From: Burkholderia multivorans ATCC BAA-247
Lineage (GTDB): Bacteria > Pseudomonadota > Gammaproteobacteria > Burkholderiales > Burkholderiaceae
Direction: 5' to 3'
Assembly: GCF_000959525.1 (NCBI RefSeq)
Contig: NZ_CP009832.1
Span: 744,001 to 808,000, forward strand
DNA length: 64,000 nt
Shown one piece after another: positions 15,748-17,606 of the stretch. Within the stretch, counting starts at the first letter, position 1. Each line of letters starts with the position of its first letter. Under the pieces are notes generated by a model. That model saw nothing but the letters and a program-made list of their open reading frames with translations. It ran no database searches and was not told where the DNA came from. A program made the translations under genes and the position numbers.

Positions 15748-16157
<410 letters not shown>

Positions 16158-16170
16158 CCGCTCGAATGCA

Positions 16171-16224: not shown

Positions 16225-16647
16225 TTACGCGGCGACGATGTCGAACGAGTGCGTGAGTTCGGCCGTCTTCGCGATCATGATCGACGCCGAGCAGTACTTG
16301 TCGTGCGACAGGTTGATCGCGCGCTCGACCGTTGCCGGATTCAGGTTGCGGCCCGTGACGGTGAAGTGGAAGTGGACCTTCGTGAACACCTTCGGATCTT
16401 CGCTCGCGCGCTCGGCCTTCAGCGTGACCGAGCAGCCCGTGACGTCCTGGCGGCTTTTCTTCAGGATCAGCACGACGTCGTACGCGGTACAGCCGCCGGT
16501 GCCGACCAGCACCATCTCCATCGGCCGCGGCGCGAGGTTATGGCCGCCGCCTTCCGGCGCGCCGTCCATCGCGACGAGGTGGCCGCTGCCGGTCTGTGCC
16601 GAAAACGCCATCCCGTCCTGACCCATCCAGCTTACTTTGCATTCCAT
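16225..16647 (-). CDS. OsmC-family peroxiredoxin-like protein
   Basis: 140-residue OsmC/Ohr-superfamily protein, expected to be a cytosolic dimer that reduces organic peroxides or related electrophiles with two cysteines. It shows the superfamily layout: APEGGGHNLAPRPMEMVLVG, the first cysteine in TGGCTAYDVV and the second in DVTGCSV, then a region starting RNLNPATVERAINLS. It resembles the YhfA-like branch of OsmC. ATG 16647 starts at MECKVSWMG; longer frames add an Arg-rich non-family leader. It stands alone, convergent with rnpB. The in vivo substrate is not shown. Confidence 0.88.
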   Translation of the reverse strand: MECKVSWMGQDGMAFSAQTGSGHLVAMDGAPEGGGHNLAPRPMEMVLVGTGGCTAYDVVLILKKSRQDVTGCSVTLKAERASEDPKVFTKVHFHFTVTGRNLNPATVERAINLSHDKYCSASIMIAKTAELTHSFDIVAA

Positions 16648-16936
16648 GCTTGCGCTCCCGCGTTGCCTGATTCGAATTCGATCCGGCATTGTAGCCCGGC
16701 GCGCAACGGTCGGCTGACGCACTGCACGGCGCGAAACGGTGCGTCCTCGGTCACGGGAGGAACGGCACTCGCGGCGACGATTTCCCTGTCGGCTTTAGGG
16801 GTTTTACTCTAGATGCGTGCGTTCGGGCGCGCCTGATGCCGAAAGTAACTTATTGATTCGACAGAGAAATTTCGTGCGTCGCCAGGTTTGTCGATAATTT
16901 CACATCGTGGTCATCGATTTCGCAATGCAAATTTTC

Positions 16937-16965
16937 TTGTGAAGTCTGCAGGCCATTCGTATAAT
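16937..16965 (+). promoter_or_regulatory. Sigma-70 promoter of the putative sRNA
   Basis: TTGTGA (16937-16942), a 17-bp spacer and a perfect TATAAT (16960-16965). The start site is predicted at about 16972. The 100 bp upstream is AT-rich for this genome. No open frame is served by this promoter before the terminator at 17034. Confidence 0.8.
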
Positions 16966-16971
16966 GCGACT

Positions 16972-17063
16972 CATTGGTTGTCGCGCTGCGGCAACCTCCG
17001 AATGTCTCCTCCACCCTCCTCCTAAGGTGGATTAAGCCCGAACCAGCCGTTCGGGCTTTTTTT
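16972..17063 (+). ncRNA. Putative small RNA with anti-Shine-Dalgarno loop
   Basis: A self-contained transcript of about 92 nt running from a strong promoter to a strong terminator, with no coding frame. Three stems are visible. Stem 1 is GTTGTCGC (16977-16984) with GCGGCAAC (16988-16995). Stem 2 is TCCACC (17010-17015) with GGTGGA (17026-17031), enclosing a 10-nt loop CUCCUCCUAA. Stem 3 is the terminator. The motif CUCCUCC occurs twice (17006-17012 and 17016-17022) and is complementary to Shine-Dalgarno sequences. sRNAs with such exposed CUCCUCC loops are known in alphaproteobacteria, and I recall similar short ones in Burkholderia. Whether this is an already named RNA cannot be told by eye. 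Confidence 0.75.
17034..17063 (+). terminator. Intrinsic terminator of the putative sRNA
   Basis: AAGCCCGAAC (17034-17043) pairs with GTTCGGGCTT (17049-17058) and a run of seven T follows from 17057. It has a perfect 10-bp stem with a 5-nt loop. Confidence 0.92.
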
Positions 17064-17108
17064 CGTCCCATGCAAACAGCGGCGCACGGCTTGCGCGCGC
17101 CGACAGCG

Positions 17109-17411
17109 TCAGGCGGGCTGCCGCGCCGTCGGCCGCGACGCCGCATCAGGCGGTGCGGATGACGTCGGTGCGGCGGGCGCGGACGCATGCGCGGCCGACG
17201 CATGCGCGCGACCGTGTGCGCAGAAATGGCGAACGCGCTCGCGCACGGCGCGCAGGCGCGCGATCCGGTCCTCGGCGTGGGCGGCGCGCGCTTCGGCGAT
17301 GCGTGCGTCGAGCGCATCGAGCTTCGCGTCGCAGCCGGTGCGGGCGAGGGCGGCAGGCGCCGCGGCGGCCAGCAGCGCGGCCGCGAACAGGTAGATCGGT
17401 CGTTGTTTCAT
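17109..17411 (-). CDS. Small secreted DUF1090-like protein
   Basis: 100-residue protein with a signal peptide (MKQRPIYLFAAALLAAAAPA, cut near ALA). A mature helical part follows with a cysteine at each end (TGCDAKLDALDARIAEARAA ... VRERVRHFCAHG). This spacing and the KLDAL...RIAEA heptad-like helices resemble the DUF1090 (YqjC) periplasmic family. The C-terminal 40 residues are Ala/Pro/His-rich and low complexity. Two adjacent ATGs (17414, 17411) are possible and neither has a clear ribosome binding site. No neighbour suggests a role. It is convergent with the sRNA unit. Confidence 0.6.
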   Translation of the reverse strand: MKQRPIYLFAAALLAAAAPAALARTGCDAKLDALDARIAEARAAHAEDRIARLRAVRERVRHFCAHGRAHASAAHASAPAAPTSSAPPDAASRPTARQPA

Positions 17412-17576
17412 CATGCTGGTTTGTTGTTCTGGATGGTCGGCCGGCCGCGGCGCGGCCAGCTCGTGCGCCGCGCGCGACCGGATGCGCCGGCCCGGCGCTC
17501 GGTTCGCCGGGAAATCGGGGCACGGAGCGGATTTTGGCCCATTTCGCGCGCGCCGCACACGGGGCGCGGATTCCCT

Positions 17577-17606
17577 TTGACCGCGCAGCCGCATTTCCTT
17601 TATAAT
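17577..17606 (+). promoter_or_regulatory. Promoter of rplM-rpsI
   Basis: TTGACC (17577-17582), an 18-bp spacer and TATAAT (17601-17606). This gives a leader of about 115 nt before rplM, long enough for ribosomal-protein autoregulation. Apart from this promoter and leader, the 316-bp gap before rplM shows no gene. Confidence 0.8.

Follow-up and report, generated by a model that had tools for sequence, protein, structure and literature searches.

An NcS27-type small RNA of the RF02278 family in Burkholderia multivorans and its likely pairing with selected Shine-Dalgarno regions

Small RNAs of the Rfam family RF02278, "Betaproteobacteria toxic small RNA", carry two CU-rich sites, the second of which lies in a hairpin loop and is followed by a terminator hairpin. 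Family members are reported to be toxic to E. coli when carried on a cloning vector (Kimelman 2012, as cited in the 2015 J2315 paper). According to that 2015 paper, Burkholderia cenocepacia J2315 has four RF02278 RNAs; among them is NcS27, with a length of 92 nt and a position between BCAL3348a and BCAL3349. As described in a later paper (Sci Rep 2017), the start of NcS27 was mapped by dRNA-seq and its end by 3'-RACE, and a processing site gives rise to a shorter form. The same paper reports that NcS27 is 9.7-fold up in biofilm, that its overexpression slows planktonic growth and lowers respiration, that expression of the reverse complement of its CU-rich 5' part makes growth faster, and that neither overexpression nor silencing has a significant effect on biofilms. 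Its target predictions comprise transport, catabolism, and regulator genes. As summarized in a 2024 review, NcS27 overexpression attenuates growth in a substrate-dependent manner and affects phenylalanine and tyrosine breakdown and sugar transport (Sass 2019). A 2025 fitness study names 14 'core detrimental fitness genes', which were positively selected in two host models; ncS27 and ncS03 belong to this set.

Several other RNAs resemble the one described below. The J2315 double-hairpin RNAs NcS03, NcS05, and NcS62 belong to the same family, but they consist almost entirely of two hairpins in the account of the Sci Rep 2017 paper. The name bdhR1, used in the S17 preprint for one RF02278 RNA of B. 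cenocepacia, refers to NcS27 or a paralogue. By its description in that preprint, S17 of Bordetella pertussis has a similar kind of conserved 5' end, RNase E processing, pairing with ribosome-binding sites, and kinship to RF02278; in contrast, it has a 190-nt precursor with a longer 5' part and is not similarly toxic in E. coli. The preprint describes S17 as Hfq-dependent and RNase E-processed, as repressing a target in a lacZ fusion, and as leaving exponential growth of E. coli unimpaired when overexpressed. The authors of the Sci Rep 2017 paper drew a comparison with Neisseria NmsR; by description, the NmsR / NgncR_162-163 siblings have two unpaired CU-rich stretches complementary to the ribosome-binding sites of metabolic genes, but their genes lie in tandem. 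Four RF02278 RNAs are also listed for Herbaspirillum seropedicae.

Here, we describe an RNA of this family in Burkholderia multivorans ATCC BAA-247. The window analysed is a stretch of 64,000 nucleotides, to which all coordinates refer. A reading of this DNA made from its letters alone (the sequence-only reading) had proposed an sRNA gene of about 92 nt between an OsmC-family and a DUF1090-like gene. The features of the locus are as follows.

16225-16647, minus strand: osmC-family gene, divergent upstream neighbour (PF02566, 66 bits)
16916-16942, plus strand: conserved block GATTTCGCAATGCAAATTTTCTTGTGA, made up of the -35 and the bases upstream of it (mean identity 83.5% over 80 sequences, with the window as reference)
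16937-16965, plus strand: sigma-70 type promoter TTGTGA-17-TATAAT, the sole promoter-like site in 16700-17600
16972-17063, plus strand: predicted 92-nt primary transcript of the NcS27-type sRNA (fold z-score; length, order, and strand as in NcS27)
16976-16996, plus strand: 5' hairpin, cut off by processing in the orthologue
17003-17063, plus strand: RF02278 core, presumed mature RNA (Rfam match 17003-17064)
17003-17012, plus strand: pairing site 1, UGUCUCCUCC, first seven bases unpaired (99.5% mean identity)
17010-17031, plus strand: hairpin 2 (UCCACC/GGUGGA), 99.4% of cells paired
17016-17025, plus strand: pairing site 2, the hairpin-2 loop CUCCUCCUAA (unpaired probability 0.78-1.0)
17034-17063, plus strand: intrinsic terminator with U tract, stem 17034-17058
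17109-17411, minus strand: DUF1090-like gene, convergent downstream neighbour (PF06476, 26.8 bits, cut-off 24.4)

Both neighbours are thus what they had been taken for. Just past osmC, at 15749-16160, lies the RNase P RNA (RF00010, 291.6 bits), and the Paraburkholderia loci L083 and L087 also have an RNase P RNA about 0.85 kb from the sRNA; the grouping is kept there.

In the Rfam search that the sequence-only reading had proposed, 17003-17064 matches RF02278 over model positions 1-64 of 64 with 73.6 bits (gathering cut-off 50 bits), and the segment has the layout of the family. By length, gene order, and strand, the RNA is the orthologue of NcS27. The two agree in length (92 nt), in the order and strands of their neighbours, in RF02278 membership, and in their CU-rich sites; the longer primary form, mapped in J2315 and predicted here, would in both cases carry an additional 5' segment. 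The sRNA lies between the DUF1090-like and osmC genes on the strand opposite to both, and from this arrangement BCAL3348a and BCAL3349 appear to be the DUF1090-like and osmC genes. NcS27 comes from another genome, probably of another species of the B. cepacia complex, and the likeness is one of such features rather than of J2315 letters. The sRNA at 16972-17063 is therefore already known, both through a catalogued family and through an experimentally studied orthologue. The sequence-only reading had named CUCCUCC-loop sRNAs of Burkholderia as a kind to which this RNA is alike; the kind was right, and the relation is closer than likeness. Its suggestion of regulated expression is borne out for NcS27 by the biofilm data of the Sci Rep 2017 paper. 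The anti-hemB RNA (RF02837) has a CU-rich loop and a terminator as well, and membership in that family is ruled out by a score of 25.6 bits against a cut-off of 49.5. MicC, AgvB, and SorY all fall far under their Rfam cut-offs. Homology to ncS35 is likewise ruled out, as the paper describing it gives no Rfam match and places it between BCAM2068 and BCAM2069.

The gene has all the signals of an independent transcription unit, as had been claimed. Direct reading and a scan both give the -35 TTGTGA at 16937-16942 and the -10 TATAAT at 16960-16965 with a 17-nt spacer, so that the promoter had been read correctly to the base; in the scan of 16700-17600 it scores 10 of 12 matches, while shuffles average 0.1 sites. 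The predicted fold of 16972-17063 has an energy of -38.5 kcal/mol (z = -5.0; none of 200 shuffles is equally stable) and consists of three hairpins, at 16976-16996, 17010-17031, and 17034-17058. The last is the terminator stem, one of three terminator-like sites in 16700-17600, where shuffles average 1.3. The absence of an open reading frame had also been claimed. Taken literally this does not hold, as two mechanical frames cross the unit, a 62-aa TTG frame at 16974-17162 and a 155-aa reverse frame at 16850-17317, but single-base length differences among the orthologues would break either of them.

The central hairpin presents CUCCUCCUAA in its loop and CUCCUCC occurs twice, at 17006-17012 and 17016-17022, as the sequence-only reading had seen. 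The second copy lies in the loop of hairpin 2. The first can be described more precisely, as it is half exposed: 17006-17009 are unpaired and 17010-17012 lie inside the stem. In the processed form, the predicted unpaired probability is at least 0.99 for 17003-17009. A single CUCCUCC carries no meaning because the motif is rarer in the 64-kb window (3 occurrences) than the chance mean of 5.4. Paired copies no more than 8 nt apart, however, occur at only 2 places in the 6.32-Mb genome, both within RF02278-family matches, and the reversed pattern at none in the whole genome.

Conservation was assessed at osmC loci of Burkholderia, Paraburkholderia, and Caballeronia (the best 80 of at least 563 relatives). 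On the osmC side, which was the side compared, 79 of the 80 have the sRNA upstream of the gene and on the other strand; at the remaining locus (L061) the contig ends 177 bases upstream. The closest of 27 named loci compared, a set that may lack the window's own species, is that of B. pseudomultivorans (90% over 5.5 kb), which makes an origin of the window in the B. cepacia complex probable. Identity was counted over the 79 orthologues and the window (80 sequences), with the window as reference and L061 left out. Mean identity is 99.5% in site 1 (17003-17012), 99.6% in the 3' strand of stem 2, 98% in the -10, 79% in the 5' hairpin, and 73% in the -35; it falls to 42% in the spacer between -35 and -10, and to 42-47% across the promoter spacer and the downstream flank. 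The sequence-only reading had staked its interpretation on loop and stems being better conserved than the flanking spacer, and the spacer is indeed far less conserved than site 1, the loop, and stem 2. The block 16916-16942 is conserved about as well as the 5' hairpin, and it could possibly be a regulator-binding or UP-type element. The Sci Rep 2017 paper mentions an upstream motif common to three J2315 homologues.

Compensating stem changes, another proposed sign of a real structure, are found in two of the three hairpins. Pairs were counted in 58 distinct sequences including the window, repeats and two loci without the 5' hairpin being left out. The window structure is formed in 94.6% of cells, and there are 64 both-sided changes, where shuffles give 18.6 and slid versions no more than 19; further pair types are not above shuffles (19 versus 18.9). 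In the 5' hairpin, both-sided changes are seen in 4 of 9 pairs (for example, C-G in 31 and A-U in 16 sequences) and 86.1% of cells are paired, the innermost pair failing in 38 of the 58 sequences. RNAalifold predicts no 5' hairpin, which appears only with the window fold imposed; its support therefore leans on that choice, though slid versions score far lower. In the terminator, 2 of 10 pairs show both-sided changes (G-C to A-U in 26 sequences) and 99.3% of cells are paired. In hairpin 2, 5 of 6 pairs never vary among the 58 sequences and no covariation is seen, so that its pairing is unproven by covariation because stem 2 hardly varies. The seven letters CUCCUCC of its loop are invariant in the 58 sequences, and the UAA end of the loop varies.

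Two of the 79 orthologues, L083 and L087, have no 5' hairpin. They still score above the Rfam cut-off (72.5 and 71.7 bits), and a TATAAT stands six bases before TGTCTCC. The predicted primary transcript of these loci would thus start where the processed form starts, as it appears by eye to do in the paralogues. Such orthologues, with the promoter next to the processed form, are newly described here, and since the promoter abuts that form they support the short form as the working RNA.

The locus is best explained, with a high degree of confidence, as an NcS27 orthologue that is processed and pairs with selected Shine-Dalgarno regions, thereby restraining uptake, catabolism, and growth. Its own sigma-70 promoter would produce a 92-nt RNA ended by the intrinsic terminator, a transcript assumed from the orthologue. 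The 5' hairpin may then be cut off just before UGUCUCC, judging from the processing site of NcS27 and the RNase E cleavage of S17. What remains, an RNA of about 61 nt that begins near 17003, is probably the working form. It would show two single-stranded C/U-rich sites, the exposed UGUCUCC end and the CUCCUCC loop; conservation of the exposed 5' end equals or exceeds that of the loop. These sites may pair with the Shine-Dalgarno regions of selected mRNAs for substrate transporters, catabolic enzymes, and regulators. The pairing would block ribosome binding, with less uptake, catabolism, and growth as the putative outcome when nutrients run short. Hfq is the likely chaperone of the RNA. The function given here is carried over from the orthologue.

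The selection of mRNAs can be examined through the perfect complement of site 1, GGAGGAGACA, which occurs at 25 places in the genome compared with 1 for the reversed pattern. Five of the 25 lie inside four genes of the RNA family and five in one identical context, and the member of this context that was tested (L111) is antisense to 23S rRNA. As a side observation, and one that counts against the best explanation, TGTCTCCTCC, the ten letters of site 1 in the sense orientation, is present in 23S rRNA (about 1300-1800 of locus L111). By the identical context these letters are probably found in five rRNA operons, and they are probably there by chance. Among the remaining 15 complements, 14 stand 9-15 nt (from the first base) before a start codon (ATG in 13, TTG in one) whose frame is 240 aa or longer, and the 15th has no frame there. 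This placement of 14 out of 15 complements outside family genes and rRNA is new here. It is partly trivial because GGAGGA is itself a Shine-Dalgarno sequence. The Pfam scan of 10 of the 14 frames (first 260 residues at most) identifies a cytosine/purine-type permease, three MFS transporters, a solute-binding protein, ETF-QO, an acyl-CoA dehydrogenase, an IclR regulator, a GAF/PAS protein, and a MetA-pathway phenol-degradation protein. We infer that the RNA of this genome blocks ribosomes on these leaders. Duplex energies of three leaders are set aside, as they ignore internal structure.

It had been proposed that the RNA could pair with many Shine-Dalgarno sequences and tune translation globally. 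CUCCUCC is close to the ribosomal anti-Shine-Dalgarno core, and an RNA exposing it might act as a general damper that pairs with any Shine-Dalgarno sequence. The reported toxicity of family members on a cloning vector in E. coli (as cited in the 2015 J2315 paper) and the lower planktonic growth and respiration on NcS27 overexpression (Sci Rep 2017) would agree with such an action, but the conserved site extends past the anti-Shine-Dalgarno letters into UGUC at 99.5% identity. The damper also fits poorly with the letters that follow GGAGGA. Among 100 listed of the 163 GGAGGA-N5-10-ATG sites, GACA is the commonest tetramer in this position with 7 occurrences, against 0.74 expected from column composition; none of 20,000 shuffles has as many, and some tetramer reached 7 in 7 of 20,000. 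GACA, the complement of the conserved UGUC, fits the sRNA in this position and not the 3' end of 16S rRNA. GGAGGA before ATG has 163 matches (reversed, 27) and GGAGGT 111 (reversed, 46), and no conclusion is built on the GGAGGT counts. Two further observations stand against a general damper: in the preprint, S17 overexpression left exponential growth of E. coli unimpaired, and NcS27 affects growth on some substrates and not on others, as stated in the 2024 review. General damping is therefore improbable, and we prefer selective control by an extended match. Pairing with Shine-Dalgarno sequences remains likely, and 'global' was probably too broad a word in view of the target predictions and the perfect-match sites. 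Two reports do count against selective restraint of growth as well, as the Sci Rep 2017 paper describes no significant effect of NcS27 in biofilms and the S17 preprint no effect on exponential growth of E. coli.

The genome has seven RF02278-family matches including the window sRNA, of which four are over the cut-off. The three others over the cut-off score 80.3, 76.0, and 53.0 bits, and each carries TGTCTCCTCC close after a -10-like sequence, as judged by eye. L005, L006, and L007 (42.1, 33.7, and 33.0 bits, each at about 1501-1569 of its own locus) are below the cut-off and are not counted as members; by eye, they keep all or part of site 1 without the second CUCCUCC, and may possibly be one-site siblings. 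Sharing of all or part of site 1 among several matches, together with the fact that U-rich terminator tails and C/U stretches are the usual ligands of Hfq, could suggest that the RNA is a sponge, which mainly binds other sRNAs or a protein such as Hfq instead of mRNAs. This is very improbable, since the CU letters have one and the same sense in all the paralogues, which cannot pair with each other through them, and the perfect complements sit at ribosome-binding positions. It is hardly credible that some longer transcript simply has its 3' UTR or terminator region here, or that the hairpins arose by chance and have no role of their own: the unit does lie between two genes, and its terminator could serve other transcripts, but both neighbours are on the other strand, the unit has its own promoter with a 98% conserved -10, and the orthologue NcS27 has a mapped start (Sci Rep 2017).

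The family is widespread among relatives of the host. In the window's family, which we take to be Burkholderiaceae, matches at E <= 0.001 are present in 285 of the 299 genomes sampled, and matches over the cut-off in 278. The corresponding numbers are 188 and 114 of 300 for the window's order, and 83 and 3 of 274 for the class sample, the 3 over the cut-off all coming from the window's order. No RF02278 match is found in 14 control genomes.

Selective control by an extended match raises a broader reading, to which we give only tentative credence: the ribosome-binding sites of the hosts would hold an address code for the sRNA, in which GGAGGA followed by GACA marks the controlled genes and sites of this kind are denser where family copies are more numerous. 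A search of 60 genomes from the window's family for GGAGGAGACA before ATG gives 245 matches; one scrambled extension gives 20 and the reversed pattern 6. The 245 are matches and not distinct genes, as the places listed (150 at most) include double counts (G009) and at least one site antisense in an sRNA gene (G037). Matches per Mb correlate with family copies (Spearman 0.58 in the 60 genomes and 0.40 in those 32 that reach 4 Mb or more, uncorrected for composition and kinship). The density is 0.95 per Mb in the family and 0.27 in 58 genomes outside the order, the scrambled control covering the family only. Those matches outside the order count against an address code, as do the genomes below 4 Mb, where 11 matches occur in 5 of 28 genomes though many keep one sRNA copy; G046, with 4 family copies and 0 matches; and G023 (4 matches) and G003, G027, and G038 (one each), which match without family copies.

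The analysis mainly confirms that a true sRNA gene and its likely action could be read from raw sequence by an unaided reader, whose observation was correct and whose interpretation is partly supported. If the address code is true, the regulon would be readable from sequence alone. Should the extended-match rule hold, sequence would suffice for listing the targets of a widespread RNA family, and what has been known as a 'toxic anti-SD RNA' would become a selective regulator.
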